Virus record (IMG/VR): IMGVR_UViG_3300025131_000133
Span: 1-39,285 of that record
DNA length: 39,285 nt
DNA from: a virus
Reading direction: 5' to 3' (one strand)
Shown: one piece after another, positions 8,179 through 39,105 of the stretch
Layout: the number at the start of each line of letters is the position of its first letter
Numbering within the stretch: position 1 is the stretch's first letter
Notes under the pieces: model-generated
What the model was told of the DNA's origin: nothing
What the model saw: the letters and a program-made list of their open reading frames with translations, nothing else
Databases searched by the model: none
Made by a program: the position numbers and the translations under genes

Positions 8179-8646
8179 ATGAAAAAATCGTTAACACGTA
8201 GCAGAGGGACAAATGATAATTGGCCCTTTAATGGGAATGCATTTGGTAATGTATTCAATGACTTAATAGCAAACAGCTTCATCTTCAAAGATGATTTAGA
8301 TTTTCGTGATACGCCAGACTGGAATAAGAGATGGGCAACTGTAACGACTACATTTGCTGATGCGACATATGCGACTGATGATGCAGCTGTTATAGAGTTG
8401 ACAGCTTCTGGCTATTCAAAAGAAAATATTACACTTGATGTATCTGATACTAAATTAACAATTAGTGCACCAAAAGTTGATAAAGAAAAAGGCATTGTAC
8501 TAGATGGTTTTACAAAATCATATGCACTTGGTTCATCTCATGACAAAAATAATATTAGTGCAACATTTGTTGATGGGTTGTTAACAGTGACAATCCCGTT
8601 TAAAGAAAAAAGTGAACCAACAACAAAACAAATAGAAATTAAATAA
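8179..8646 (+). CDS. Hsp20 / alpha-crystallin small heat-shock protein
   Basis: A 155-residue small heat-shock protein. The alpha-crystallin domain runs from about 65 to 145, with the expected beta-sandwich signature 'VIELTASGYSKENI', then 'LTISAPK' and the hallmark 'ATFVDGLLTVTIPF'. The C-terminal 'KQIEIK' contains the I-x-I anchor that docks into neighbouring subunits during oligomer assembly. These ATP-independent holdases bind unfolding proteins; T4-like cyanophages and other marine myophages commonly carry one, presumably to help capsid or tail folding or to protect host function during infection. The start is fixed by a strong ribosome-binding site (AAGGAG, about 8168-8173) a few bases upstream. 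A 15-bp palindrome lies about 40 nt upstream and may control it. Confidence 0.92.
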   Translation: MKKSLTRSRGTNDNWPFNGNAFGNVFNDLIANSFIFKDDLDFRDTPDWNKRWATVTTTFADATYATDDAAVIELTASGYSKENITLDVSDTKLTISAPKVDKEKGIVLDGFTKSYALGSSHDKNNISATFVDGLLTVTIPFKEKSEPTTKQIEIK

Positions 8647-9200: not shown

Positions 9201-10820
9201 ATGCTAAAAGCTAATATTGTCAAAGAAATTATCGCATGCGGTAAGAATCCTGAATATTTTATCAATAAATATATAAAAGTTGAGCATCCATTACGTGGTA
9301 TCATACCTTTCAAGTTATATGATTATCAAACTGATATATTAAAAGATCTTTTACAAAATCGTTTTAATATTGTCAACAAGGGTCGTCAACTCGGGTTGTC
9401 AACGTTGCTTGCTGCGTATTGCACATGGTTGATGTTATTCTACAAGAGTAAAAATATTCTTGTGGTTGCAACAAAGATTGATGTTGCTAGAAACATCATT
9501 GACAAAGTAAAAATTGCATTAAACAATCTACCTGAAGATATATTCATATCAAAGGTGGTGACAAATAACCGTCATTCAATTGAGCTTGCGAATGGCTCAC
9601 GAATTAAAGCATCAACTACATCTAAAGATGTTGGGCGTTCTGAAGCTGCATCATTGTTAATCGTTGATGAAGCTGCTCACGTTGACAATTTAGAAGAGTT
9701 GTGGACTGGTTTGAAGCCAACAATGACACGTGGTGGTCGTTGTGCTCTAGTATCGACACCAAATGGTGTCGGAAACTTCTTTCACAAGACTTATTCAAGT
9801 GCTGAGGCTGGTTTAAATGACTTTAAAGCAAGAACAATTAATTGGCGTGTGCATCCAGAACAAAATGATAAATGGTTTGCAAAAGAAACAAAAGGTTTTT
9901 CACAAAAAAAGATTGATCAAGAGTATGAAGCAAAATTTATTGCGTCAGGTGACACAGTCATTGAACCTGAAGATATAAATTATCTAGAAGCTATGGTTAG
10001 ACCACCCGCAGAACGTATGGGCATGGATAGAAATTTATGGATTTGGGAATATCCGACAACTGGTGAAGATTATATTATTAGTGCTGATGTCGCTAGAGGT
10101 GATGGGTCCGACTGTTCAACACTTCATTGTCTCAAAGCAAGTTCATGGGAAGTAGTAGCAGAATATAAGGGTAAATTGCCACCAGAGATATTTGCTCGCC
10201 TATTAGATGAGGTGGGTAGAATGTATAATAATGCTCTGATGGTACCGGAAAATAATAGCTTTGGTTATACAACAATACAAAAGCTTGTTGAAGTAGGATA
10301 TCCTAATTTATATGTTGAAGGAAACCGTGGACGTAAAGCATCATTAATGAACAGCAGTTTAAGCGTATTGACAGAAAATAATAATATTCCTGGGTTTACA
10401 ACAAGCGCAAAAACTAGACCATTAATTCTATCAAAATTAGAAGAAGTCATACGTACACGAACATTAAAATGTTACTCATCAAGATTTGTTGATGAGCTTA
10501 AGTCATTTAGGTGGATCAAAGGTAAAGCAAGAGCACAAACAGGTATGAATGATGACTTAGTCATCTCTATGGCAATTGCTTGTTGGATGTCTGATGCAAC
10601 GTACACAGTCAACGAGCGTGCAAGAGACTTGAATGTGGCAATGCTAGACGCAATGACAATATCATCAAGAAACTGGGATGATGCAACGGGTACTGGAAAA
10701 GATGTTGGCCCAACATATAGTGGTAATAGTGGACTACACGGTTATAGTGCACCCGGTTTAAAAATTAGATCAACAGGTGGTGAAGAGATAGACTTGTCAT
10801 GGCTTATAAGCACAGGATAA
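9201..10820 (+). CDS. terL: Terminase large subunit (gp17-like packaging ATPase/nuclease)
   Basis: A 539-residue DNA-packaging motor of the T4 gp17 family (T4: 610 residues). The N-terminal ATPase has Walker A variant 'GRQLGLST' (61-68), Walker B 'LLIVDEAAH' (D156, E157) and coupling motif 'STPNG' (185-189). The C-terminal RNase H-fold nuclease shows 'SADVARGDGSD' (about residue 295), 'VPENNSFG' (about 350) and 'GMNDDLVISMA' (about 450), the three acidic motifs that bind catalytic metals. The N-terminus 'PEYFINKYIKVEHP...YDYQ' is typical of the family and supports this start. It docks on the portal encoded at 11852, cuts the concatemer and pumps DNA into the prohead. The C-terminus 'EEIDLSWLIS' may be a docking peptide (speculation). 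Confidence 0.96.
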   Translation: MLKANIVKEIIACGKNPEYFINKYIKVEHPLRGIIPFKLYDYQTDILKDLLQNRFNIVNKGRQLGLSTLLAAYCTWLMLFYKSKNILVVATKIDVARNIIDKVKIALNNLPEDIFISKVVTNNRHSIELANGSRIKASTTSKDVGRSEAASLLIVDEAAHVDNLEELWTGLKPTMTRGGRCALVSTPNGVGNFFHKTYSSAEAGLNDFKARTINWRVHPEQNDKWFAKETKGFSQKKIDQEYEAKFIASGDTVIEPEDINYLEAMVRPPAERMGMDRNLWIWEYPTTGEDYIISADVARGDGSDCSTLHCLKASSWEVVAEYKGKLPPEIFARLLDEVGRMYNNALMVPENNSFGYTTIQKLVEVGYPNLYVEGNRGRKASLMNSSLSVLTENNNIPGFTTSAKTRPLILSKLEEVIRTRTLKCYSSRFVDELKSFRWIKGKARAQTGMNDDLVISMAIACWMSDATYTVNERARDLNVAMLDAMTISSRNWDDATGTGKDVGPTYSGNSGLHGYSAPGLKIRSTGGEEIDLSWLISTG

Positions 10821-11851: not shown

Positions 11852-13891
11852 ATGTCAGATAGAATTTCACTTTTCAAGCGTCTAACTAGGGTATTTCGTA
11901 GTGGCCCTATAGTCAAAAGCAAGATAAAGGCTGCAAGCTCGTATGTAGAAGCACCTGCAAGTTCATTCTTAGACCATTTCAGGTCATCAAATTATTTATA
12001 TTCAAATGCTGTTGCAAGTTATGGAACTTATGATCGTCTTAGTCGCTATGCAGACTACTCAGAAATGGAGTACACTCCAGAATTAAGCTCTGGCTTAGAT
12101 ATATACTCTGATGAAGTGTGTGCATCAGATGAACATGGTCGCATTGTTCATATTTACTCAGACAACCAACGTGTACGTGAGCTATTAGAGCATTTATTCT
12201 ATGATACATTAAACATAGAGTTTAGCATGCATAGTTGGATTAGAAATCTTGTCAAGTATGGTGACTTCTTCTTATTCAACGATGTACACACACATTATGG
12301 AATTGTCAATACATTCCCAATACCAGTCAATGAAATAGAACGTGAAGAAGGATATGATCCCGAAGACCCGCTGGCCGTTCGCTTCAGATGGGTTACACAA
12401 GGAAATCAAATTCTTGAAAACTGGATGGTTACACATTTCCGCTTGTTGGGAAATGACAACTTCTTACCGTATGGAAGCAGTGTAATTGAACCAGCAAGAA
12501 GAATATGGCGTCAATTGATATTGATTGAAGATGCAATGATGGTTTATAGAATCATTAGATCACCTGAGCGTCGTGTATTTTATATTGATGTCGGCAACAT
12601 CGACCCTGGAGATGTACCAACATATCTAGAAAAAGTCAAAACAAGCCTAAAGCGTCAATCTGTAATAAACACTAGCACTGGTAGAGTTGATCTTCGTTAT
12701 AATCCATTAAGTGTTGATGAGGACTACTTTATTCCTATTAGGGGCGATACCTCAACAAAAATTGAAACATTGGCTGGTGGGCAGTTTACTGGTGACATAG
12801 AAGACGTTGAGTATATTCAAAAGAAACTATTTGCGGCAATAAAGATCCCTAGAGCCTACCTAGGTTATGATGAAGATCTATCAGGCAAGGCAACGTTAGC
12901 ACAAGAAGATATACGTTTTTCACGTACAATAACACGTGTACAAAAAATTGTTATTAGTGAGTTGAACAAGCTGGCAATGATTCACTTAGCTGCTCATGGA
13001 TTTGATGGTCAAGATCTAATTAATTTTAGAATTGCCCTTAGCAATCCATCAACTGCCGCACAACAACAAAAGCTTGAACTTTGGAGGGCAAGATTTGAAA
13101 TAGCTTCATCAGCCCCAGACGGTATGTTTTCAAAACGTTGGATTCATAAGAACTTATTCTTGCTTGATGATAAAGAAATTCAATCTATCAAAGATGAGTT
13201 GCTTGCTGAACGTGAAGAAGATCTTGAATTAGAGCAAGTTGGTCAAGAAGAAGATCTTGGTGGTCAACCTCCTGCAGGTGGTGAGGAGGGCGGTGGAGAA
13301 GAAGATCTAAATCTAAGCGGAATTATGGGTGGTGAACCAAAGCCTGAGCCAGGTGCGCAACTGGAAGCAGGAATAGAACATGAGTGGGATGTTATTACAC
13401 CAAGTATTAATAGGCCTGAATCATTAGAAGAAATTGAAGATAATCTAGATAATCTAGATGAAAAAGAAAGACCGAAGGGGCGTATGCGTAGAGGTCGACC
13501 TCATAAGTCGTTATCATACGGTGTAGACGGCACTGAGATGCCTGACTTGAATAAGCATGTAGACTACACTGATAATGACCCATACGATAATGATTTCATG
13601 AAGAACATTGGTAAAGTAGATAAACTAATGGATGAAGATGACACAGGTAAATTAGACAAGTTTTTTGATAGCAAAATAACATCAATTGCTAGAATCAACA
13701 ATCAAGTTGAATCAATGCTTAAAAATTTAAATACATCTTTGGGTTTAAGTAGCTTAAATGCAGGCCCACAAATATTAACTGAAGATCTTGAAAATGTTGT
13801 AACTGGTCTAAGTGACATAATAAATGAATCACAAGATATTGAAATTGATATCGATGATATAGAAAAAGATCCAGCTAGTAGTGATGAGTAG
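11852..13891 (+). CDS. gp20: Portal protein (gp20-like)
   Basis: A 679-residue portal, the dodecameric ring at the capsid vertex through which DNA enters and exits and on which head assembly starts. Family features include 'YTPELSSGLDIYSDE' (about 75-89), 'RSPERRVFYIDVGN' (about 240-253), a long stretch on the crown/stem boundary with 'IKIPRAYLGYDEDLSGKATL' (about 330-350), and 'DIRFSRTITRVQK'. It is longer than T4 gp20 (524) mainly because of an acidic, Gly-rich, low-complexity tail from about 470 on ('EEDLGGQPPAGGEEGGGEED') and a helical end. The gene has its own short upstream region (TATATAATTC about 11837) and no strong Shine-Dalgarno. Confidence 0.95.
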   Translation: MSDRISLFKRLTRVFRSGPIVKSKIKAASSYVEAPASSFLDHFRSSNYLYSNAVASYGTYDRLSRYADYSEMEYTPELSSGLDIYSDEVCASDEHGRIVHIYSDNQRVRELLEHLFYDTLNIEFSMHSWIRNLVKYGDFFLFNDVHTHYGIVNTFPIPVNEIEREEGYDPEDPLAVRFRWVTQGNQILENWMVTHFRLLGNDNFLPYGSSVIEPARRIWRQLILIEDAMMVYRIIRSPERRVFYIDVGNIDPGDVPTYLEKVKTSLKRQSVINTSTGRVDLRYNPLSVDEDYFIPIRGDTSTKIETLAGGQFTGDIEDVEYIQKKLFAAIKIPRAYLGYDEDLSGKATLAQEDIRFSRTITRVQKIVISELNKLAMIHLAAHGFDGQDLINFRIALSNPSTAAQQQKLELWRARFEIASSAPDGMFSKRWIHKNLFLLDDKEIQSIKDELLAEREEDLELEQVGQEEDLGGQPPAGGEEGGGEEDLNLSGIMGGEPKPEPGAQLEAGIEHEWDVITPSINRPESLEEIEDNLDNLDEKERPKGRMRRGRPHKSLSYGVDGTEMPDLNKHVDYTDNDPYDNDFMKNIGKVDKLMDEDDTGKLDKFFDSKITSIARINNQVESMLKNLNTSLGLSSLNAGPQILTEDLENVVTGLSDIINESQDIEIDIDDIEKDPASSDE

Positions 13892-13948: not shown

Positions 13949-14803
13949 ATGATTAAGCATAACAAGAAGCGAAATACATTATTGCTTTATGAGTTTTTAA
14001 TGAAATCACTAATAAAGTCTATTTTAGAGAATAACTCTAAACAGGCTGACTTTAAGATTAATTTATTAAAGAGATTTCATGATAGAGATTCACAATTGTT
14101 TAGAGAGCATAAAATCATGTGTGCTTTAAGTGAAATGAAAGTTTCGTGCGAAAGCACTGTCGATAAAATATTTGAAGATGTTAAAGAATTTTCTAGAAAT
14201 ATCAATTACAAAGTCCTTAATAAAGAAAAGACATTATTGATAAATGAAATACACAATAACATAAAAGACGATGATTTTTATAACTATCATATAAATGAGT
14301 ACGTGTTATATGCGACAATACATAATTTGATTAATGAATATAGAAGTAGTACAAGTGTAGATTTTGATAAAAAAGTAAAAATATCTATATTTGAAGATAA
14401 CATAAAGCAACATCTAAAAGAGCAGAAAGATGAATCAAGTGAAATGTTAACTGAAGATGGGAAAGTTTATAATAACTTGACAACAAAGATAATCATAGAA
14501 CGTTTCAATAAAAAATATTCACATCTTAACAGTTTACAAAATAACTTGTTAAACACATATACATTTAAAAGTGACAATATCAATGAATCACTTTTAAGCG
14601 CAAAAGAGAAAATCTTAGAGCACATTAATATGATAAGCGATTCTGATTCAAGTATTAATACTGATGCTAGCTTAGTAAACAAAATAAACGATATCAAAGA
14701 AGGTCTAGAAAGATTATCTATAGATAATAACGTGAAAATTGATGATGTCACTGTCAATAAAGTTATATGTTACGGAGAAATAATGAATTATGATATCAGC
14801 TGA
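13949..14803 (+). CDS. Helical head-assembly protein between portal and protease
   Basis: A 284-residue, strongly helical, Lys/Asn/Ile-rich protein, starting 'IKHNKKRNTLLLYEFLMKSL'. No catalytic motif or membrane segment is seen. It occupies the place of the T4 core genes 67/68, between portal (20) and prohead protease (21), so a prohead core or assembly-chaperone role is reasonable; no residue-level resemblance to gp67/gp68 is claimed. 'LLLYEFLMKSL' near its N-terminus faintly recalls the amphipathic leaders elsewhere ('LLYEFI' in the 1879 gene). A promoter-like 16-mer lies upstream, and its 3' end overlaps the protease gene by 14 nt, suggesting coupled expression. Confidence 0.6.
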   Translation: MIKHNKKRNTLLLYEFLMKSLIKSILENNSKQADFKINLLKRFHDRDSQLFREHKIMCALSEMKVSCESTVDKIFEDVKEFSRNINYKVLNKEKTLLINEIHNNIKDDDFYNYHINEYVLYATIHNLINEYRSSTSVDFDKKVKISIFEDNIKQHLKEQKDESSEMLTEDGKVYNNLTTKIIIERFNKKYSHLNSLQNNLLNTYTFKSDNINESLLSAKEKILEHINMISDSDSSINTDASLVNKINDIKEGLERLSIDNNVKIDDVTVNKVICYGEIMNYDIS

Positions 14804-15422
14804 TGAACAATATCTATTAACTGAATACGCGGATATTGATTATTCACGTGAACTAATAAAAGAGGCTATTGGTGAAAATAAACCTATCACACTCACAGGT
14901 GTGATGCAAAGGGCTGGAACATTAAACCAAAATAAGCGTATATATCCTAGACACATCTTAGAGCGTGAAGTTGACAACTATATGAAAATTGTCAATGAAG
15001 ACCGGGCTGTAGGTGAACTTGATCATCCTAATGAAAGCGTTGTAGAGTTGAAAAATGCATCACATATTGTACGTGAATTATGGTGGGACGGTGATGATTT
15101 ACTAGGAAGGATCGAAGTATTAACAACACCATGCGGAAAAATATTACAAGCACTACTAGAAAGTGGTGTAAAGATAGGAATCTCATCACGAGGTGTTGGG
15201 TCACTTAAAAAACAGGGTGATACACATATGGTTGAAGATGATTATGTTCTAATTTGTTGGGACATAGTCTCAGAGCCTAGCACACCCGGTGCATTTGTCG
15301 TTCGTGAGGGTAAGGTTGTTTCTGTTTCTAGTAATGAAGTTGTTAATTCCTTTAATAAGACAGACAGGCTAAATAGAATATTAAATTCTATATCTACTAA
15401 CATCGAGGCGATAAATGAATAG
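14790..15422 (+). CDS. gp21: Prohead core protease (gp21-like, S78/U9 family)
   Basis: A 210-residue maturation protease, close to T4 gp21 (212). Visible signature: 'AVGELDHP' with likely catalytic His79, 'KIGISSRGVGS' with catalytic Ser at 132/133, and 'WDIVSEPS' (D158) supplying the acidic partner. In T4 this enzyme is enclosed in the prohead, becomes active after shell completion and cleaves scaffold, capsid, and internal proteins after Glu in (Leu/Ile)-x-Glu contexts. Matching sequences occur in the capsid protein here (LLLE70/A71) and at several leader motifs. The ATG has GGAG upstream (about 14775) and overlaps the preceding frame by 14 nt; the stop overlaps the next gene by 8 nt. Confidence 0.93.
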   Translation: MISADEQYLLTEYADIDYSRELIKEAIGENKPITLTGVMQRAGTLNQNKRIYPRHILEREVDNYMKIVNEDRAVGELDHPNESVVELKNASHIVRELWWDGDDLLGRIEVLTTPCGKILQALLESGVKIGISSRGVGSLKKQGDTHMVEDDYVLICWDIVSEPSTPGAFVVREGKVVSVSSNEVVNSFNKTDRLNRILNSISTNIEAINE

Positions 15423-15883: not shown

Positions 15884-16471
15884 ATGAAACTCAAAAAGAA
15901 ACAACTAAAGGGCCTTATCAAAGAGTGTTTACAGGAAATGTTTGCTGAAGAATTTGTCAATACTGTTATACAGACAAAACTTGATCAATTTGTTGCACTA
16001 CAGTTACGTGAAAGTATTGAACAAGCACAACAAGCTGTTATACAACAACCACAACAACAATACTTTACACCACAACAACAAGTAAATAGACAACAAATGC
16101 TTAGAGAGATGGCACCAGATGTTAATTCAACACAACAATACAACGCTCCACAGGCACAAATTCCACAACATGATGATCTAAATGATAGAATGAGTAAATT
16201 CAAACAAACAATTCATAATGTGACTCATGGTGATACACCACAAGCGCAACGTGCTCCTGTAGCACAACAGCCGGCACGTATTGTTGAAAATACTGATTCA
16301 AGTTCTAATATGATGCAATCAATATTTGCAGACACCGCAGCAACAACACTACAATCACAAGCAGATGCTGGCAAAGCTGGTATGGGACCGGGGGTTAACC
16401 CAATGGATCCTGGGATTGATATTAGTGCAATGGTCAACCCTAACTGGGGCCGCATGGCTGGAATAAAATAA
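15884..16471 (+). CDS. Gln-rich head-module protein with leader motif
   Basis: Start at ATG 15884, with AAGGAG at 15869-15874 and 9-nt spacing; a longer reading from 15857 would place this site inside the gene. The 195-residue product begins 'MKLKKKQLKGLIKECLQE', one of the clearest copies of the shared amphipathic leader, with LIKE and LQE as possible protease sites. From about 35 to 85 it is Gln-rich, encoded by CAA-repeat DNA (about 16027-16100). The rest is disordered-looking (Gln, Ala, Pro) and it ends 'MVNPNWGRMAGIK'. No known domain. Inference: an internal head or structural protein removed or trimmed during maturation. Confidence 0.6.
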   Translation: MKLKKKQLKGLIKECLQEMFAEEFVNTVIQTKLDQFVALQLRESIEQAQQAVIQQPQQQYFTPQQQVNRQQMLREMAPDVNSTQQYNAPQAQIPQHDDLNDRMSKFKQTIHNVTHGDTPQAQRAPVAQQPARIVENTDSSSNMMQSIFADTAATTLQSQADAGKAGMGPGVNPMDPGIDISAMVNPNWGRMAGIK

Positions 16472-16504: not shown

Positions 16505-16807
16505 ATGGCAACTACTAAAGCAGATATAACAGTCAATCCACGAGTTGGACCAGGGTCATTATTATTTCCTGCATCTCCTTTATTGGATATAGTTTCACTT
16601 GTGCCTAATGATAATGGTTTTCCTAAATCACCAGTGATTGAAAGATTTGTTCCCGGTGAAGAAGGTGAATTTGATGAGATAGTTGGTACAAGGCCACTTC
16701 CTGATTCACCAGCAGATTTTGCACAAGATCATGCAAACAGAGCAAAAGAGCATCGCGATGGATCAGAACCAACTGCATCGACGGCGTTGCAAGATGCTAA
16801 CTCTTAA
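16505..16807 (+). CDS. Short acidic/proline-rich protein preceding the Fic gene
   Basis: A 100-residue protein with Pro/Gly-rich, probably extended sequence: 'VNPRVGPGSLLFPASPLLDIVSLVPND' region (about 10-37), an acidic middle ('GEEGEFDEIVGT', about 51-62) and a helical end ('DFAQDHANRAKEH'). Ends 'TALQDANS'. No known domain. Its last 14 nt overlap the Fic protein gene, whose ATG at 16794 lies inside it, so translation of the two is probably coupled and they may act together (antitoxin, chaperone or structural partner are all possible). No Shine-Dalgarno is visible. Confidence 0.5.
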   Translation: MATTKADITVNPRVGPGSLLFPASPLLDIVSLVPNDNGFPKSPVIERFVPGEEGEFDEIVGTRPLPDSPADFAQDHANRAKEHRDGSEPTASTALQDANS

Positions 16808-19763
16808 TAACATATTCAATGAATTATTACTTGAAGGTCGCTTAGAGCAAGCACAAAAGAAGTACCCAAAATTCCATACTGAGATTGAACAATTAGCAGA
16901 TGTTGATCCAAGTGGTAAGCTAAAATATCTTGCATGGCAAGTTAAACAACTTGCTTTAGACGAGCCTATAACTGAAATCATATCACTTGTCAATCAATTT
17001 CATAATGCAAGCAAGAGGCTTTCAAAAAAAGATATATATCAATATAAAACGCTTGGAGATTTACGTCATGCTTTTGAGACAGAATTAAAAGTTAATGATG
17101 GGCCAAATGTAAAGCAAATTAAAAAAGAAGAAGCAGAAAAGCTTTATGAAGATGAGCAATATGTGCTTATTTTACCTAAAACAAAGGAAGCAAGTTGTCT
17201 ATATGGCAAAGGGACTAAGTGGTGCATAGCAGCAACACAAAGTGAAAATTACTTTGATCAATATGTACTTGATGCAGAGACAAACGCATTATTTTTCTTT
17301 CTTATTAACAAGCAAATGGACACTAGCGATCCTAATCATAAACTTGCTTTTACATACATACGAAATGAAGATTTATATTTAGAAGAGCTTCAAGTGTTTG
17401 ATGCACATGATACACAAATTGGCCAGACTAAGGGCCTTGAAAGTATCGAAGATGAAGATAAACGTACTGAAATTAAAAGAATCATGGATTCATATCTGAC
17501 TCGCCGATATGCTACACCAACTAAAAAGAAGTTCATGCTTATTTATGGTGAAAATACATCACCAGAAGTGCTAGCAAAGTTGGCAAGCGATAAAAATAAA
17601 GAAATAAGAGCTGGAATTGCAAACAATAGTAGTACGCCGCCAGAGGTATTAATAAGACTCTATAAGGATCCGGATCCTGAAGTTAGACTTGGTGTGGCAG
17701 CAAACAAAAATCTTCCTACTGAAATGCTAAAAACATTATCAGGTGACAAAGATTCTTCTGTGCGTTTTAATGTTGCTATTAATAAAGGTGCACCACCGGA
17801 GATATTAAAAGTATTATCAACTGATGAAGAGTTTGAAGTACGTAGAGCTGCCATAGGCAACCCTAATGCATCCATAGAGATGCTTACTTCTGCTGCAAAT
17901 GATAATAATAATAAATATATTCGTGCTGCTATTGCAAGGAATCATAATACACCATTAGAGGTATTAAAGAAACTTGCTCATGATACCCCAATGTTTATAA
18001 GCAGATATATGGTAAAAAATCCAAACCTTACACCAGAATTAATGCAACTACTGTTAAAGTTAGACCACACAGCCGCGCTTAGAGTAGAAATTGCAAAACA
18101 TCATAATGCATCACCAGAAATACTGGATACACTTGGAGGCAACATAAGTCAATATGTGCGTATTGCAGTAGTAAGAAATCCCAATACATCAATAGAGACA
18201 TTGAAAGTTTTAATGAAAGATAGACAGTGGTCTATTGAAAGGGAGGCACGCGCAAGACTAGAAAAAGAAATAGCGCTTGAAGAGAGTGTATTCAATAAAC
18301 TTCTTGAAAATGTAGCCAGCACTGGCTATCATGCACAAGGCTTTGCACCATCATTCCGAGGCGGTTGGTCACAGATAAAGCAACAACCACATAAGCACCC
18401 TCGTGAAGCAGGATTTCCATATAGAAATTATGAAGATACAGAAGATGTTGAGCAAGAAGTAGAAGATTTTGATACTGTTGTTGGAATAAAAAATAAATTA
18501 AATATTGCAAAAGTACCACAATCTATGATGGCTGATCCAGGTAGCAACTATGATACCGGTCGTAAAACTCAGATGATGATGACAAGTCGTGGTGGCTCTA
18601 ATGAGTTAGATTTTGAAGATGATCAAGAATATGTTAGTAGAGTGAATCTAAAAGAAGAATCTGAAGAAATGGGTGACACAAATCCAAAAGAACTTGCAAA
18701 ATTTATTGTACGTTCAAATAAAATTGAGGGTTATGATGTGCCATTCGAACATGCACTTGAAGCTGTTGAGGGATACTTAGAGGGATATCCTGTACGCTAT
18801 GTGACTAATAACAAACATATCTCTGCTCACTTAGCAGCGCTTAAAGTTGCTCAAGAGTTAAAAAATATAAAATCTGTCAATAGTATTAGAGAAATACATA
18901 GGGCTATGGGTCAAGATGTCTTAGATGCCGGTTCGCCTGGGATGATTAGAACTGATACAGAGGTTACATCAATGGGTGGAACACAATATGCACCAAGCTC
19001 AGATGTTCCAGCAGCATTATCATGGTGGGTATCACATTCTTTCAATTCACCTTTCGAAGCACATGTTGCGTATGAACTGATACATCCGTTTGATGATGGA
19101 AATGGTAGATCAGGCAGAGTAATTCTTGCTGCAATGATGAATTTTGATTGGGCACACATTAATCAATTCATAGATAGAACATATTTTGGTAGATTAAATA
19201 ACGTTGGAAAGAAATTTAGTGGCTCATTTTGGAATCAGAAACAAAATTCAGAGAAACTTGATGAGTGGGGTAAATCACAATACTCATTATACAAAAATCA
19301 ACCCGGGCACCACGGTTCTGCATTACATCAACAACCAAGTAAAGCTGGTGGATCACTTGGTATGCGAGGTGCCTCTGTTGCTCACCCGGGACAAGGTCCT
19401 GCAGGTTGGTCTGCTGGAATGGGTGAAAAAGCATCAGATGATGTTTGGGATGAATCTGAAGAAGAGGAAGGATATATTAGCCCAATTCACAAGTTTGTGC
19501 GTAAGTCAATTCGTGGTACATTGAAAGAATTAGTAATAGCACCTATTCATGGTAAAGATGGAACAGGCTCTACCGGTAGGTTCAATGGTTATCGTGGTTT
19601 GAATACATGGGCTAGGGGCGACTTAAAATATCGCGGGCTTAAAAAGAAAGATACACATGATGATCAAGATAGATTAAAGTTAACTCAGTGGTATAGCGAC
19701 GACGAGCGTGAAAACCCAGAGACAGATGGTGTATATTGGTATGAACAAAAGGAGTTACCATGA
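16794..19763 (+). CDS. LRV-repeat Fic-domain protein (putative AMPylase/nucleotidyltransferase)
   Basis: Start at ATG 16794 ('MLTLNNIFNELLLE'), giving 989 residues; reading on from 16683 only adds the overlapping frame of the upstream gene. Order: amphipathic leader; a domain with 'YGKGTKWC' (137-144) that I know only as a recurring phage segment; nine 25-27-residue leucine-rich-variant-like repeats (about 254-485; pattern Asn-x-x-x-x-x-Glu-x-Leu, later Arg); an acidic linker; a Fic domain with complete 'HPFDDGNGRSGR' (His764); a Gly-rich linker; and 'FVRKSIRGTLKEL' near the end. 'SNKIEG' (641-646) matches the class II Fic inhibitory motif (S/T)xxxE(G/N). Fic enzymes usually transfer AMP to hydroxyl groups of target proteins. 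ATGA couples it to bS21. Confidence 0.85.
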   Translation: MLTLNNIFNELLLEGRLEQAQKKYPKFHTEIEQLADVDPSGKLKYLAWQVKQLALDEPITEIISLVNQFHNASKRLSKKDIYQYKTLGDLRHAFETELKVNDGPNVKQIKKEEAEKLYEDEQYVLILPKTKEASCLYGKGTKWCIAATQSENYFDQYVLDAETNALFFFLINKQMDTSDPNHKLAFTYIRNEDLYLEELQVFDAHDTQIGQTKGLESIEDEDKRTEIKRIMDSYLTRRYATPTKKKFMLIYGENTSPEVLAKLASDKNKEIRAGIANNSSTPPEVLIRLYKDPDPEVRLGVAANKNLPTEMLKTLSGDKDSSVRFNVAINKGAPPEILKVLSTDEEFEVRRAAIGNPNASIEMLTSAANDNNNKYIRAAIARNHNTPLEVLKKLAHDTPMFISRYMVKNPNLTPELMQLLLKLDHTAALRVEIAKHHNASPEILDTLGGNISQYVRIAVVRNPNTSIETLKVLMKDRQWSIEREARARLEKEIALEESVFNKLLENVASTGYHAQGFAPSFRGGWSQIKQQPHKHPREAGFPYRNYEDTEDVEQEVEDFDTVVGIKNKLNIAKVPQSMMADPGSNYDTGRKTQMMMTSRGGSNELDFEDDQEYVSRVNLKEESEEMGDTNPKELAKFIVRSNKIEGYDVPFEHALEAVEGYLEGYPVRYVTNNKHISAHLAALKVAQELKNIKSVNSIREIHRAMGQDVLDAGSPGMIRTDTEVTSMGGTQYAPSSDVPAALSWWVSHSFNSPFEAHVAYELIHPFDDGNGRSGRVILAAMMNFDWAHINQFIDRTYFGRLNNVGKKFSGSFWNQKQNSEKLDEWGKSQYSLYKNQPGHHGSALHQQPSKAGGSLGMRGASVAHPGQGPAGWSAGMGEKASDDVWDESEEEEGYISPIHKFVRKSIRGTLKELVIAPIHGKDGTGSTGRFNGYRGLNTWARGDLKYRGLKKKDTHDDQDRLKLTQWYSDDERENPETDGVYWYEQKELP

Positions 19764-20050: not shown

Positions 20051-21196
20051 ATGAGCAGACTATTAGACGAAGCACTACTTGATGCAAAGCAAGTTAGAGA
20101 AGTAGCAGAAAAAAATGCAATGCGCATGTTAGTGGAGAAGTCTATGCCACGCATCAAAGAGTTCATAAGCGCTAGATTAGAAGAAGACGCTTATGAAGAA
20201 GACAAAGAGCTCTTACATGATGAAGAAGAAACTCCCGAACTTGGTAATGAATTAGCTCCTGATGAAGAAGGCCCAGTATTAGGGCCTGAACTTGAGGGTG
20301 ATGTTGCAATCAATCATGATGCAATGCCAGAAATGCCAAATGAATTAGAAGGTGGAGCACCAGAAGGCGAACATGTCTGTCCTGTTTCTGGAGAAGAAGA
20401 GCAAATTTTTAACATCGATGTCGATTTTGACGAAGATGAAATGGAAAGCGATAAAATGAATAATATTGGAGGCGATACTATAATGGCTAGCGAACTTTAC
20501 AAACTTCTAGAGGTAGATCAACAAGACAAATCTGTAGATGTAGATGAGAAGAAAGATCTCGAAGAAGGTATGGGTGACGAGGAGTTAGAATTGGATGAAA
20601 TGTCCGATGTTCCTGGTGAGGAAGATCCATCACTTGCAGAAAGCGATGAAGTTGATGAATGGGTAGAAATTAGTGAAGAAGAATTAGAAGCTGCACTTGC
20701 AGAAATGGATAATCTTGATGATCTAGAAGAAGGTCCTAATCAACCTTTTGACAAAAAGCCAAAAGTAAACTTAGATGGTGACGTACTAGCTCTTAAAGAA
20801 TCAGTGCGCACTTATCGAAGCCAGCTTAATGAAATGAAAGTTGTAGTCAACAAGCTACGCGGTCAAATTCATGAAACAAATCTCTTCAATGCAAAACTTC
20901 TATATGCTACGAAACTAGTAAATAGAAAAGATATAACAAATGAAAATAAAGAGCGAGTAATTGATACTCTTGATAAAGCATCAAGCATTCGCGAAGTAAA
21001 ATTGGTCTATGAGACTTTCGTAAAGGCTCTTGTAGGCAAAGGTAGCGTTCAACGTCAAGTTAATGAAAGCGCAGTTAGAGCAGCCGGCGTCGGTGGCGCC
21101 TCACGAGTTTCTAGAAGCGCGGGCACTCAACCACAATCACTAAATGAGAATGCCGATTTTGGTAGATGGCGAACACTAGCTGGGTTAAATAACTAA
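20051..21196 (+). CDS. gp22: Prohead scaffolding core protein (gp22-like)
   Basis: A 381-residue, very acidic protein directly upstream of the capsid gene, as for T4 gp22. The first 50 residues form a charged helix ('DEALLDAKQVREVAEKNAM'); residues 50-240 are dominated by Glu/Asp; about 250-280 is a coiled coil ('LKESVRTYRSQLNEMKVVVNK' region); about 285-330 is helical. The C-terminal 'NADFGRWRTLAGLNN' matches the W-x-x-LAGL end shared by gp22-type scaffolds. Many Leu/Ile-x-Glu sites (for example LLDE/A at residues 4-8) suit destruction by the prohead protease after shell assembly. Role: template for capsid protein assembly, removed before DNA entry. Confidence 0.85.
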   Translation: MSRLLDEALLDAKQVREVAEKNAMRMLVEKSMPRIKEFISARLEEDAYEEDKELLHDEEETPELGNELAPDEEGPVLGPELEGDVAINHDAMPEMPNELEGGAPEGEHVCPVSGEEEQIFNIDVDFDEDEMESDKMNNIGGDTIMASELYKLLEVDQQDKSVDVDEKKDLEEGMGDEELELDEMSDVPGEEDPSLAESDEVDEWVEISEEELEAALAEMDNLDDLEEGPNQPFDKKPKVNLDGDVLALKESVRTYRSQLNEMKVVVNKLRGQIHETNLFNAKLLYATKLVNRKDITNENKERVIDTLDKASSIREVKLVYETFVKALVGKGSVQRQVNESAVRAAGVGGASRVSRSAGTQPQSLNENADFGRWRTLAGLNN

Positions 21197-21219: not shown

Positions 21220-23172
21220 ATGTCAGATAAACAATTTAATTTACGAACCCTATCCGAAGACATTCGTGCTCGCAATATGGGACTCGAAAATAGTCGACTA
21301 GTCCACAAGTGGAATCAAACTGGTCTTCTAGAAGGTTTAAACGATAACCAAAGCAAAGATGCAATGGCTCGTCTTCTAGAGAATCAATGTGCTGAACTTC
21401 TACGTCAAAGTGGCGGTCTTCTACTAGAAGCCTCATCAGTTTCAACTGGTGGTGGAAGTCTAGCATCCAGCGGTGATCTACGTGGTTTCCAAAATATTGC
21501 ATTCCCAATCGTACGAAGGGTATTCGGTGGGTTACTAGCAAATGAGCTAGTATCGATACAGCCGATGGCACTGCCATCAGGTCTGTTGTTCTACCTAGAT
21601 TATACATATGGTACTAACACTGGTGCGGCTGCCGGACAGGCAACGTATGAAGCCGGTGAGTCCGTATATAATGGTCCAGCAGGTAAAGGTGTCCGTTCAG
21701 GTTCACTAGCAACTGGTGGTCAATTTGATCTAGTCGGAACTGGTTACTCAAAAGTACATAACTCAACATCAGCGATTTTGCAAGTTATGGCTTCAGGTGC
21801 ATTCAACTCAGCCGGCGTTGCTCAAGGGACTTTGTCTCGTGGCGCAACGATGGTAGCAACAGGTTCTGATGCTGTCTTAGCACAGTTTGATCCTGAAGTT
21901 CTGCGTCAAATTGAGTTTGGTGTACACAAAGGTGATAGCACGACTGCTGAACACGGTCACTATCAGATTGTTATTCTTGATGCTACACAGCTATCAAGTT
22001 CAGACAATACACAAATTGAGCAAGTTGCTCTAAGCTCAGATGACTTGTCATCAAAGGGTTTAGGTACAGTAGGTGAGAAGGTACAAGGTGGCAAAGTCGC
22101 TAACGTACGTCGCTTGAACCAACTAGGCAACTACTCATTAGCGGGTGGTGGATCAGGTGGTTCATGGACAGCGGATCCGTTCGCAGGTGTCCACGTACTA
22201 ATGGTCGTAACTGGTGCTTTAGTAATTAGTGACCCAGGTCAAGCTGATGCTGACACTGCGTTACATTGCCAAGGTTTGACTGCATCATTCGTAATCAAAG
22301 ACACATTAGATGTCGATTCAACTGAAGGTTCGACTTTAGCGATTCCTTCATTCGAATCTGACTTTGGTGCTACACCATCGCCAGCAATTCCTGAAATTGA
22401 CATCAAAGTAGAGTCAATCGCTGTAACGGCACAAACTCGAAAGTTGAGAGCTCGCTGGACTCCAGAACTAGCTCAAGACTTGAACGCATACCATAACTTG
22501 GATGCAGAGGTTGAGCTAACTCAGATTCTATCTGAGCAGATTGCTCTAGAAATAGACAGAGAGATCGTAAATGATCTATTAGTCGAAGCTAAGGGTGCAA
22601 ACTTCTTCTGGTCACGTTCACCAGGTAAGTTCGTCAATAAGCAAAATGGAAGTGAAATCTCCAGAACTACTTCATTGACTCCTGGACCTGCGTTTACTGG
22701 TAACGTACGTGAATGGTATGAGACTTTGGTCGAAACCATCATAGACGTAGCAAACCAGATCCACAGGAAGACACTACGAGGTGCAGCTAACTTCATCGTT
22801 ACTTCACCAGATGTGTGCACTATCCTAGAAGCTTCCGTGCTACATAAACCAGATCTGCGCTCCGATGCAAATGGGCAGGTTTCCTACCCAGGCAACATTG
22901 GTGCACTACCAGCTGGTTCATTAGCCGGTCGATTCCGACTATACAAAGATCCTTACTTCCCACGAAATAAGGTCCTTGTTGGTTACAAGGGTGGTAGCTT
23001 CCTAGAGACAGGATATGTATACGCTCCGTACGTACCATTGATTGTCACTCCAACGATCTTCGAACCCGAAGACTTCACCCCACGTAAGGGTGTTATGACG
23101 CGTTATGGTAAGAAGATGGTACGAGCTGATTTTTACGGAACTGTGACATGTCTCGACATGGATATTATCTAG
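21220..23172 (+). CDS. gp23: Major capsid protein (gp23-like)
   Basis: A 650-residue T4 gp23-type, HK97-fold capsid protein (T4 gp23: 521). Hallmarks: N-terminal delta region then 'SGGLLLE/ASS', with E70/A71 matching the gp21 cleavage rule; 'IAFPIVRRVFGGLLANELVSIQPM' region (about 92-115); 'LRARWTPELAQDLNAYHNLDAE' region (about 407-428); 'FIVTSPDVCTILEAS'; and the C-terminal 'GGSFLETGYVYAPYVPL' and 'RKGVMTRYGKKMVRADFYG'. Extra length lies mostly between about 150 and 400, likely an insertion on the outer surface. AAGGAG sits about 16 nt before the ATG, and a strong terminator follows, consistent with high expression. Codon use looks less A/T-biased than its neighbours, as often for abundant proteins. 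Confidence 0.97.
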   Translation: MSDKQFNLRTLSEDIRARNMGLENSRLVHKWNQTGLLEGLNDNQSKDAMARLLENQCAELLRQSGGLLLEASSVSTGGGSLASSGDLRGFQNIAFPIVRRVFGGLLANELVSIQPMALPSGLLFYLDYTYGTNTGAAAGQATYEAGESVYNGPAGKGVRSGSLATGGQFDLVGTGYSKVHNSTSAILQVMASGAFNSAGVAQGTLSRGATMVATGSDAVLAQFDPEVLRQIEFGVHKGDSTTAEHGHYQIVILDATQLSSSDNTQIEQVALSSDDLSSKGLGTVGEKVQGGKVANVRRLNQLGNYSLAGGGSGGSWTADPFAGVHVLMVVTGALVISDPGQADADTALHCQGLTASFVIKDTLDVDSTEGSTLAIPSFESDFGATPSPAIPEIDIKVESIAVTAQTRKLRARWTPELAQDLNAYHNLDAEVELTQILSEQIALEIDREIVNDLLVEAKGANFFWSRSPGKFVNKQNGSEISRTTSLTPGPAFTGNVREWYETLVETIIDVANQIHRKTLRGAANFIVTSPDVCTILEASVLHKPDLRSDANGQVSYPGNIGALPAGSLAGRFRLYKDPYFPRNKVLVGYKGGSFLETGYVYAPYVPLIVTPTIFEPEDFTPRKGVMTRYGKKMVRADFYGTVTCLDMDII

Positions 23173-23289: not shown

Positions 23290-24264
23290 ATGATTAAATG
23301 TAAAATATGTAATAAAGAATTCAAGAGTAGATTATCATCACATGTAAAAAGAATTCATGTAATGGATTATAAAGACTATCTTATAAAGTATGAACATAAT
23401 GGAGAGATACCAAAGTGTACTTGTGGTTGTAATATAGAAACACCGTTTACTACATCTGGTGGAATGAGCTTTAATAAATATATTCATGGGCATAATGCAA
23501 AAGACAAAATCTGGACTAAAGAAGCACGTGAAAGCATTGGAAAGAAGAATAGCAATAACATGAAGTGCTTTATGAGAGAGAATCCTGATGTAGCGAAGCT
23601 ACGCTCTAAGCAAATGAATGCTGGCCAAACTAAAGAAGTTCGTAAAAGAACTGCTATTTCTATTAGAAGTACATATGATAACATGAGTGATAAAGAAAAG
23701 CAAAAATTTAGTGACCACTCGGCAAGGCTTTGGGCAGAAAATAAAGAAGTGATGCAGCAAGGGGCAATCAAAGCTGGTAAGACATTTAGCAAGAACTTTG
23801 ATGATGGCAAATACGATTTCACAGAGCGTGATAAAAAGATATCTGAATCAATAACTAAGAAGTATCTTGAAGGTGGGTTTCAGTGGGCACGTGGTCATTA
23901 TACATCAACTAAATGGGGTAAGACATATTATTATCGTTCTAGTTGGGAGTTAAAGTACATGCAACTACTAGACAGTGATGATAATGTTGGCAGTTGGAAA
24001 TATGAACCATTCTCACTAGAGTATAAGATTAATGGAAAAGCAAAAAACTATATTCCTGACTTCATAGTAACAAGAAAATCAATCAGTTGTGGATACATTT
24101 TTGATGAATTAGTTGAAATAAAACCACAAGCATTGACAGATACAAAAGTAAATAAAGCGAAACGTAAAGCAGCACTTAAATGGTGTAAAGAAAATAATTA
24201 CTGTTATACTGAAGTATGGTATAATGAAATAATTAATGAATTTGAAAAAATAGACTACGCGTAG
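23290..24264 (+). CDS. PD-(D/E)XK homing endonuclease with C2H2-like zinc finger
   Basis: A 324-residue free-standing endonuclease. The N-terminus has a C2H2-type finger ('CKICNKEFKSRLSSHVKRIH', 4-23) and a second Cys group ('CTCGC', about 43-47). The middle is a basic helical DNA-binding region with NUMOD3-like pieces ('TKEARESIGKKNSNNMK'). The C-terminal nuclease reads 'YYYRSSWELKYMQ' (Glu), 'YIPDFIV' (Asp) and 'LVEIKPQ' (Glu-x-Lys): a complete PD-(D/E)XK core like the EDxHD/Vsr-type homing nucleases. Such enzymes cut phage genomes lacking the gene, driving their own spread. It lies directly after the capsid terminator. No Shine-Dalgarno is visible. It shares its C-terminal architecture with the gene at 27394. 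Confidence 0.8.
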   Translation: MIKCKICNKEFKSRLSSHVKRIHVMDYKDYLIKYEHNGEIPKCTCGCNIETPFTTSGGMSFNKYIHGHNAKDKIWTKEARESIGKKNSNNMKCFMRENPDVAKLRSKQMNAGQTKEVRKRTAISIRSTYDNMSDKEKQKFSDHSARLWAENKEVMQQGAIKAGKTFSKNFDDGKYDFTERDKKISESITKKYLEGGFQWARGHYTSTKWGKTYYYRSSWELKYMQLLDSDDNVGSWKYEPFSLEYKINGKAKNYIPDFIVTRKSISCGYIFDELVEIKPQALTDTKVNKAKRKAALKWCKENNYCYTEVWYNEIINEFEKIDYA

Positions 24265-27393: not shown

Positions 27394-28416
27394 ATGCCTA
27401 TACTAAAGATTGAAAAAACACTAAATAAAGAAGCCGGTAAGATAAAGCGTATCATACATTATCAATGTGATTCATGTGATAAACAATTCACCCGTCCATA
27501 TAAGAAAGCGCAAGTAGAAAAAAATAAAAAATATACATATTGTAAAAAAGATTGCTATTACAAATCTAGAAGCAAGGGTGGAAAAGATTATAAAAAACGC
27601 TTACAAAGCGGCACATTATCACTAGCTGGAAAGCGTATGAATGAAATTACAAAAGAAAGATATGGTGCTCATTCATCACAACTTGATTTTGTTAAAAGAA
27701 AAGTAAAAAAGACACATGAAGAAAAATATGGTGGGGTAGGATTTGCAAGCAAAAAGCTTGCAAAGAAATCTCATGAAAAGACATTGAAATTGTATGGTGT
27801 TGAACATGCATTACAATCAGATGAAATAAAAGAAAACCAAAGAAAGACTAATAAAAAGAAATATGGTTATGATCATGTGCTGCAGGTGCCAGAAATAAAA
27901 AAGAAAGCAGAAAAGACAAACATGAAACGTTATGGTGGAAAGAAACCAATGTGCGCAAGTAAAGTACGTAATAAACAAGAACAGACATGTATAAAAAGAT
28001 ATGGTGTTAGAAACTATTCACAAACACAAGAATTTGCAGATATGAATATTTGGGATAAATATCACGTAACTGGTCATATTCAATTTATGAACAAACAAAT
28101 TTACTACCGTAGCTCATATGAAAAGCGCTTTCTAGAATGGTGTGTCAAGAACATTCACATAATCAAAGATATCACACCAAATATTAGCTTCAAGTATTTT
28201 CGTAAATCTGGTAAGCAACACATATATTTTGCAGATTTTCTTATTGAATTCAATACTGGCAAGCATATTCTTTATGAAATAAAACCGCAAACCTTTGTCA
28301 ATTCAGAACTAAATCAAGCAAAATTTAAAGCTGTGCGTCAACAACTAAAAGAAAAGAATATAGACAAGTTTATAATTATCACTGAGAATGAACTGGCATA
28401 TTTAAAGCATGGGTAG
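27394..28416 (+). CDS. PD-(D/E)XK homing endonuclease with repeated DNA-binding helices
   Basis: A 340-residue free-standing endonuclease. N-terminus: a four-Cys zinc site ('CDSCDKQF' about 25-32, then 'CKKDC' about 50-54). Middle: at least four degenerate repeats of about 30 residues with 'K..T..KYG....LQ...IK.K' (about 85-210), a pattern seen in phage homing endonucleases. C-terminus: 'YYRSSYEKRFLEW' (Glu), 'YFADFLIEF' (Asp) and 'ILYEIKPQ' (Glu-x-Lys), a complete PD-(D/E)XK core close to the gene at 23290. Its stop overlaps the next structural gene by 8 nt. No Shine-Dalgarno. Role: mobile element nuclease; its target is probably the matching site in related phages. Confidence 0.78.
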   Translation: MPILKIEKTLNKEAGKIKRIIHYQCDSCDKQFTRPYKKAQVEKNKKYTYCKKDCYYKSRSKGGKDYKKRLQSGTLSLAGKRMNEITKERYGAHSSQLDFVKRKVKKTHEEKYGGVGFASKKLAKKSHEKTLKLYGVEHALQSDEIKENQRKTNKKKYGYDHVLQVPEIKKKAEKTNMKRYGGKKPMCASKVRNKQEQTCIKRYGVRNYSQTQEFADMNIWDKYHVTGHIQFMNKQIYYRSSYEKRFLEWCVKNIHIIKDITPNISFKYFRKSGKQHIYFADFLIEFNTGKHILYEIKPQTFVNSELNQAKFKAVRQQLKEKNIDKFIIITENELAYLKHG

Positions 28417-38403: not shown

Positions 38404-39105
38404 ATGAACACATTACGTGCTCTCAAAGAAGACTGGGGTTTATCTGATGAACAAGTACAAAAGATAAATTCCTGGGCCGGGATAGATTTATCAAAAGCTA
38501 TCCCATTAGGTACAGGTCAACATGGCACAGCACATGATGTTGGTAATAATCGTGTTCTTAAATTCACAGATGATGATACTGAAGCTGACGCATCATCAGC
38601 ATTAATCAATAAGCATCATAAAAATGTTGTTAACATATATAAAGTTGGCAAAATTACAACGAATATTAAACATTGGCATCCGGATCAAGATAAAAAGTTT
38701 AATGTTTATTTAATTCTTCAAGAAAAACTACAAGGTATACCTAAAGATATTGAAGATGTAATGGTGTGGTTAGTAGATAATACTTTAGGCGGTTTCGAGG
38801 GTATAACAACAGACAACTTGAAACTAGTAGATGGTGTATATAACTTTGAAAGTGATGTTGATGCATATCTTGATGAAGATTTTAATGATGAAAGAGAAGT
38901 GTTAATGAATATCATGAAACAAATATTTGATGGTATTTGGTTTTTAAAGCAACAAGGTGTTGATTTTTATGATCTCCACACTGGAAATTTAATGTTTCGT
39001 GATAGTAAAACACCTGCTATTATTGATCTTGGTGTCTCAGCTACAAACGCACCGGGAAAAATTGATATACTACAAGAATATATTAGAAAATTATTAATCA
39101 TCTAA
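38404..39105 (+). CDS. Kinase-fold protein 3 (atypical protein kinase-like)
   Basis: A 233-residue protein with a fairly complete kinase core: glycine loop 'GTGQHGTAHDV' (36-46), Lys53 in 'VLKFT', hinge-like 'YLILQEKL' (102-109), catalytic loop 'DFYDLHTGNLMF' (D190, N195) and 'AIIDLGVS' with metal Asp208 (DLG instead of DFG). All five key positions are present, so catalysis is plausible. The C-lobe after DLG is short (about 25 residues). It resembles the 1879/2675 pair in the D-x-H-x-G-N loop but has a different N-lobe and no 'GSKNDPAIY' block. It starts nine bases after the tail tube stop. Target unknown. Confidence 0.65.
   Translation: MNTLRALKEDWGLSDEQVQKINSWAGIDLSKAIPLGTGQHGTAHDVGNNRVLKFTDDDTEADASSALINKHHKNVVNIYKVGKITTNIKHWHPDQDKKFNVYLILQEKLQGIPKDIEDVMVWLVDNTLGGFEGITTDNLKLVDGVYNFESDVDAYLDEDFNDEREVLMNIMKQIFDGIWFLKQQGVDFYDLHTGNLMFRDSKTPAIIDLGVSATNAPGKIDILQEYIRKLLII

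Follow-up and report, generated by a model that had tools for sequence, protein, structure and literature searches.

A WC-LRV-Fic protein encoded among phage head genes: a candidate for a virion-delivered AMPylase

The WC-LRV-Fic gene and its surroundings

The virus record IMGVR_UViG_3300025131_000133 from IMG/VR, analysed here over its whole length of 39,285 bases (the window), encodes on its plus strand a protein of 989 amino acids (positions 16794–19763) in which a WC domain (containing the motif YGKGTKWC) is followed by nine LRV repeats, a linker, a Fic domain and a C-terminal tail. An earlier note on this DNA, made from the sequence alone, had placed a large open reading frame (ORF) at exactly these positions, and translation confirms it, with no internal stop. 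The earliest possible start of the ORF is a TTG at 16683; the ATG at 16794 was chosen as the start because relatives of the protein start at a comparable distance before an L-x-E-G-R motif. A second IMG/VR contig (L002), 99.95% identical to the window over 12,262 bp, carries the same gene with zero base differences, so that an assembly artefact is unlikely. A search with the full-length protein matched four viral loci, and the match extended over the full length only in the identical copy of L002.

The LRV array spans residues 255–490 (17556–18263) and is the proposed target-binding arm. It matches the Pfam families LRV (PF01816, E 3.3e-28) and LRV_2 (E 9.6e-11) as well as the structure 1lrv, and a profile scan resolves units of 26–27 amino acids starting at residues 255, 281, 307, 333, 360, 386, 413, 439 and 465, in agreement with the nine LRV-like repeats counted in the earlier note. 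The unit profile was built on five of the nine units, and the units at 360, 413 and 465 score weakly. The linker (residues 491–628; 18264–18677) contains L-x-E at 497, 505 and 621, and a sequence scan of the protein found no such site within the LRV array. The C-terminal tail (residues 816–989; 19239–19760) has no family match in Pfam.

According to PHROGs, the gene is surrounded by a T4-like set of terminase (9201–10820), portal (11852–13891), head maturation protease, major head protein, head-tail adaptor and tail sheath genes. The protease (14790–15422, plus strand; phrog_207, E 4e-51) is of the gp21 type and is the candidate processing enzyme; the major head protein is encoded at 21220–23172 (plus strand; phrog_138, E 1e-73). 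The ORF at 20051–21196 (plus strand) is without a PHROG match and is labelled here as the presumed scaffold by position, because it directly precedes the major head protein gene, as its counterparts do in five relatives. Three small ORFs separate the protease from the WC-LRV-Fic gene, and an ORF at 15884–16468 (plus strand) with the leader MKLKKKQLKGLIKE has a relative at the same place in four of the five related head operons. All five relatives (G011, G012, G013, G015 and G016) have the same gene order, with the terminase first and then the portal, KHNKKRN ORF, protease, variable stretch, presumed scaffold and major head protein. Their variable stretch is occupied by small ORFs, several of them leader-bearing, and in G016 also by genes for proteins of 907 and 877 amino acids; a WC or Fic match was found in this stretch in none of the five. 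In the window, it is this stretch that the WC-LRV-Fic gene occupies. The location inside a head operon, as the earlier note had it, is thus borne out; its further argument that the position supports packaging is weaker, since the slot varies among relatives and position alone would prove little. The notion that position proves packaging was accordingly dropped.

The WC domain family and N-terminal leaders

The WC domain covers about residues 14–220 (16833–17453), with YGKGTKWC at 137–144. The earlier note had recognized an unfamiliar domain here; it represents a virus-specific family and is the main clue to the protein. A search with an N-terminal alignment gave 165 pattern matches, including 107 relatives, of which the best 80, from 78 viral loci, were kept; when false ORFs (in L031, L068 and L095), L002 and duplicates had been left out, 74 further distinct proteins remained. 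The same patterns, run against a prokaryote collection in which 84,980 species are represented by a single genome each, gave 137 matches and a single relative, so the WC domain is essentially viral. That one gene (L097) lies on a 2.8-Mb contig of a metagenome-assembled genome of candidate division WOR-3, next to ORFs with leader-like starts and an ORF that looks GroEL-like by eye, possibly in a prophage or a mis-binned phage.

Across the 75 WC proteins, G138, W143 and C144 are invariant, and conservation is almost complete for L-x-E at residues 12–14, DPSGN, KDI and A-S-C-x-Y-G. The C-termini vary, and Pfam detects LRV or Fic in only one of the 75, the window protein. The domain can occur in many copies, with five in L033 and seven matches in Salicola phage SCTP-2. 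Two PHROGs whose function is listed as unknown, 17056 and 28193, match 62 and 48 of the 75 proteins, respectively. An AlphaFold2 model of the domain (predicted local distance difference test score, pLDDT, 86.9; predicted template-modelling score, pTM, 0.54) gave no confident structural match, the best Foldseek hit having an E of 1.5; the best Z scores, 7.5 for the helical first half (to a designed protein) and 5.3 for the second, decide for neither a new nor a known fold. Kinship with the PcfJ-like family (PF14284) found no adequate support, because the scores of 14.2–16.0 bits in four listed of ten proteins are below the cut-off of 25; among all 75 WC proteins the best E was 5.3e-4, the window protein was not listed at E up to 1, and PcfJ is kept as a lead only.

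The link of this family to the virion comes from Pseudomonas phage PA5oct, whose WC homologue EST35_0205 is annotated in its record as a structural protein with the remark 'ESI-MS/MS'. Profile comparison aligned the window WC domain with this protein over 177 columns (probability 99.5, E 3.2e-23). In Cassandra, a phage related to PA5oct, the WC homologue is located directly behind the terminase. Among 55 non-redundant WC loci, our own phage included, 11 also encode a protein recognizably similar to a virion or packaging protein of the window (terminase, portal, protease, scaffold, head, neck or sheath); that gene is on the same strand in all 11 and within 1.3 kb in 10.

The window protein itself starts with a leader-like segment (residues 1–14; 16794–16835). 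By sequence match, FNELLLE, ending at residue 14, resembles a T4-type capsid-targeting sequence with an L/I-x-E end, and F8, L11, L12 and E14 reproduce the spacing of residues 4, 7, 8 and 10 of T4 IPIII. According to PMC9026906, targeting depends on residues 4 and 7 of IPIII and processing on residues 8 and 10, and cleavage by the T4 prohead protease takes place after L/I-x-E. All complete ORFs no shorter than 110 amino acids were searched for a motif with the IPIII spacing, with contigs L105–L180 as controls. In the WC phages it falls within residues 1–25 of 198 of 823 ORFs, compared with 45, 49 and 34 for the three following stretches of equal length and with 54.3 (at most 67) in shuffled sequences; the controls gave 46 of 797, followed by 20, 24 and 27, and 23.1 in shuffles. 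Since the controls thus show a twofold excess of their own (46 of 797, with a background of about 24), weight is given only to the larger size of the excess in WC phages and to the peaks by position. Once WC proteins had been taken out and redundancy reduced, the motif glutamate peaks among 673 ORFs at positions 11 (32 ORFs) and 14 (33 ORFs), with a mean of 2.0 per internal position; in the controls the maximum at any N-terminal position is 6 of 779.

A Pfam scan of 119 leader-bearing ORFs (of 842) gave few matches: Fic three times, and NUDIX, PAP2, Pkinase, YkuD, LysM, LRR and others once each. Most of the 119 had no match, and no replication enzyme is found among the 13 Pfam families listed for them. 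Clade-specific leaders of the MKITxxQLRxIIKEE, MKNLIKKILKE and MKLLLENWRxYIKEE types open many adjoining, unrelated ORFs (L182:154-6728, L184:6489-8549, and in L036, L092 and L181), which looks like a catalogue of packaged cargo. ORFs in L068 and L070 that start with M-S/K-x-L-x-x-E-I-x-R-I/M may carry a further leader type.

The Fic domain and its phage relatives

The Fic core occupies residues 696–781 (18879–19136) and matches Pfam Fic (PF02661) with an E of 5.3e-10 and 40.4 bits, against a cut-off of 24. The signature HxFx(D/E)GNGRxxR is present as HPFDDGNGRSGR at His764 (19083–19118). N-terminal to the core, SNKIEG at residues 641–646 (18714–18731) aligns with the SNKIEG of the Clostridioides difficile Fic protein and places the presumed inhibitory Glu645 119 residues before His764. 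A model of residues 603–834 (232 amino acids, based on 11 sequences; pLDDT 80.4, pTM 0.77) supports a Fic fold for the domain: Fic proteins top the list in structure searches, with 8cil_A as the best Foldseek match (E 8e-5) and Z scores of 14.8 for FICD and 14.7 for the C. difficile protein (4x2d).

A scan with an alignment of the window Fic domain and three relatives gave 159 matches, including 12 relatives. When the L002 copy and an apparent duplicate (L189, of L188) had been set aside, the clade comprised the window protein and ten other phage proteins: three stand-alone Fic proteins of 210–213 amino acids (L102, L183 and L184), a Fic-NUDIX protein (L181), a PolyA_pol domain joined to Fic (L182) and five PAP2-Fic proteins (L185, L186, L187, L188 and L190; PAP2 was recognized by Pfam in L187, L188 and L190 and by eye in the other two). 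All 11 members retain both the signature and the inhibitory glutamate, with 115–120 residues between glutamate and histidine, and five retain the final G/N of the motif (S/T)xxxE(G/N). The complete active site and the class II inhibitory motif reported in the earlier note are therefore intact and conserved. The leader motif lies within residues 1–25 in seven of the 11 proteins, with its glutamate exactly at position 14 in L181, L183 and L184. In searches of cultured phages the best matches reached only E 6e-4 with the window Fic domain and 3e-5 with that of L102 as the query; matches of L190 to cultured phages fall in its PAP2 part.

The window Fic domain is 39–48% identical to the stand-alone, NUDIX and PolyA_pol forms and 28–34% to the PAP2-Fic proteins. 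Because it is nearer to the non-PAP2 forms despite a major head protein 61–63% identical to those of three PAP2-Fic phages, and because the ORF list of the window shows no gene between primase and gp46/47, where all five PAP2-Fic genes reside, it looks to have been acquired separately rather than moved from a PAP2-Fic gene. The PAP2-phosphatase/Fic fusion is itself conserved at one place, the primase-gp46/47 interval, in five related phages. The gene at L182:6798-10295 encodes a 1166-residue protein with a CCA-adding-like PolyA_pol domain, Fic and a long C-terminus containing HELQH; a PolyA_pol ORF is also found near the L102 Fic gene (L102:9083-9979).

Elsewhere the parts of the window protein exist as separate genes. 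The 108-kb contig L184 has a stand-alone Fic gene with the leader MRITRKNLRKIILEN and, about 4 kb away on the opposite strand, a gene for a 583-residue WC-LRV protein with the nearly identical leader MKIKKSQLRKIILES. The latter protein aligns with the window protein across WC and LRV (E 5e-13), and a search for further WC-LRV relatives of it returned only itself. The Fic gene of L183 has as its neighbour a 704-residue ORF with a WC match (E 1.4e-5), and the Fic-NUDIX gene of L181 is about 2 kb from a WC gene. WC was thus found on three of the eight Fic records searched, and on none of the four PAP2-Fic records, which are fragments. To judge by these sequences, the window gene probably arose by fusion of two modules that are elsewhere separate leader-bearing phage proteins. 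The fusion and the shared leaders point to a common destination.

Other genes of the window include two tandem tail sheath genes (31053–34001 and 34060–37020; 982 and 986 amino acids), two homing-endonuclease-like ORFs in the head-neck region (23290–24264 and 27394–28416), both of which also match PHROGs 'head closure' families, and an ORF at 38404–39105 that is kinase-like by eye (phrog_3809). An Hsp20-like gene (8179–8646) is located upstream of the terminase; Hsp20-like ORFs also occur upstream of the WC genes in L026 and L040 and of the Fic gene in L184, and L032 belongs to the same group of contigs noted for Hsp20.

Probable delivery from the head and competing explanations

On balance, the protein is probably an internal head protein that would carry a self-inhibited Fic enzyme, an AMPylase, into the host. 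This reading draws on the intact gene in a head operon, the WC homologue annotated from mass spectrometry (MS), the intact Fic active site and inhibitory motif, and the predicted Fic fold. The protein would be made late, together with the head genes, and its N-terminal leader/WC region would dock it in the prohead core, where it may be cut by the gp21-type protease, either behind LLE14 or at the linker sites (497, 505, 621). It would then be retained in the head and exit through the tail alongside the DNA. Once inside the cell, it would seize a host protein with the LRV arm; target binding, or else refolding of the protein after its passage, would move the inhibitory glutamate aside, and Fic would then attach a nucleotide, AMP most likely, to the bound host protein as infection begins. 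Bacterial Fic targets given in PMC7479194 include GyrB and ParE, which are a lead only for this protein.

Several observations weigh against delivery from the head. The MS support for EST35_0205 is a note within a GenBank record. The 44 WC loci other than the 11 mentioned above, scanned for neighbours through 150 proteins, have mixed surroundings (tail tube, ribonucleotide reductase, nucleases and many unknown genes), which shows that a WC gene need not have virion genes close by. Taken by itself, the window has no significant enrichment of leaders (3 of 30 ORFs). In the WC family the conserved R16, K23 and Y24 come after L-x-E-G-R, which may therefore serve the architecture of the WC domain instead of marking a point of cleavage; as LLLE-G overlaps a motif conserved within the domain, it need not be a cleavage site. 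The PAP2-Fic relatives are placed among replication genes, away from head genes, and several class II Fic proteins showed no activity in PMC7479194, so the motif is no guarantee of measurable activity. Of the leader-like start proposed in the earlier note, what stands is the strong enrichment of capsid-targeting-like leaders at N-termini in WC phages, not the reading of LLLE-G as such; its packaging claim, likewise, gains from PA5oct and from these leaders, whereas position and LLLE by themselves are weak.

T4-like head operons are expressed late. The protein might hence be a late, unpackaged effector, produced alongside the head proteins and active in the cytoplasm late in infection, where it could for example affect host replication or the timing of lysis, or counter superinfecting phages. 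The location of five of five PAP2-Fic relatives among replication genes agrees with this, and class II inhibition would fit an enzyme that is silent until required, but the MS annotation of the WC homologue, the leader enrichment and the leaders borne by stand-alone Fic proteins speak for packaging, and we regard a late effector as unlikely, though deserving of some weight. A role in morphogenesis, with WC as a structural or core protein and Fic modifying phage proteins such as scaffold, portal or tail, would account for the head operon and the structural annotation of the WC homologue. An assembly factor is nevertheless improbable, given that Fic occurs on one of 75 WC proteins scanned, that the Fic clade is found also without WC and distant from head genes, and that five related head operons do without the gene.

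Fic proteins are often toxins, and a toxin-antitoxin or anti-phage module of the Doc/FicT kind, protecting the phage from competitors, could be imagined. Anti-phage activity has been reported for Sofic (PMC12249575). The large fusion to a virion-type domain in a head operon tells against such a module, and the inhibitory motif is internal, so that an antitoxin gene is unnecessary; we find this explanation very improbable. The inactive class II proteins cited above could also mean that the Fic fold is kept here for binding only and is catalytically dead in practice, which is hard to reconcile with signature residues retained in 11 of 11 proteins at 28–48% overall identity to the window protein and has the faintest probability of all.

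Beyond delivery of this one protein, we propose tentatively, as a serious possibility, a general head-cargo system in uncultured T4-like and jumbo phages, in which proteins would be marked for packaging and injection by the WC domain and by short leaders that differ from clade to clade (MKITxxQLRxIIxEE, MKNLIKKILKE and MKLLLENWRxYIxEE types). Its cargoes would include Fic, NUDIX, PAP2, kinase and peptidoglycan enzymes, and the window protein, fused from two cargoes, would be its first recognized virion-delivered AMPylase. If so, phages inject AMPylating enzymes from the head and Fic joins the short list of virion-delivered modifying enzymes; leader and WC domain would then allow candidate injected effectors to be read directly from uncultured phage genomes. 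The stand-alone relatives of 210–213 amino acids are far easier to assay than the 989-residue fusion. Packaged modifying enzymes and Fic proteins are each known already; among the papers listed by the literature searches, none described the two combined in one virion cargo.

Among known systems, the class II Fic proteins (C. difficile Fic, SoFic and FICD) share with the window protein the N-terminal (S/T)xxxE(G/N) motif, HxFx(D/E)GNGRxxR and the predicted Fic fold; its clade differs in coming, in this search, from viral contigs only, and the window member in its fusion to WC and LRV. EST35_0205 of PA5oct and its homologues in related Pseudomonas phages have the N-terminal WC domain in common with it, but EST35_0205 has 482 amino acids, a different C-terminus and no Fic signature in its sequence. 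The internal proteins IPI–III of T4, as described in PMC9026906 and PMC12373910, show the same spacing of hydrophobic targeting and L/I-x-E positions in the N-terminal leader, likewise unrelated cargoes with only the leader in common, and a gp21-type protease in the operon; they are small, whereas the window protein, a putative internal head protein, is a predicted 989-residue multidomain enzyme whose leader merges with the WC domain. By analogy, T4 Alt, an injected ADP-ribosyltransferase, would share the proposed logic of a head-packaged enzyme that modifies host proteins at once, Alt by ADP-ribosylation and the window protein by predicted Fic nucleotidyl transfer.

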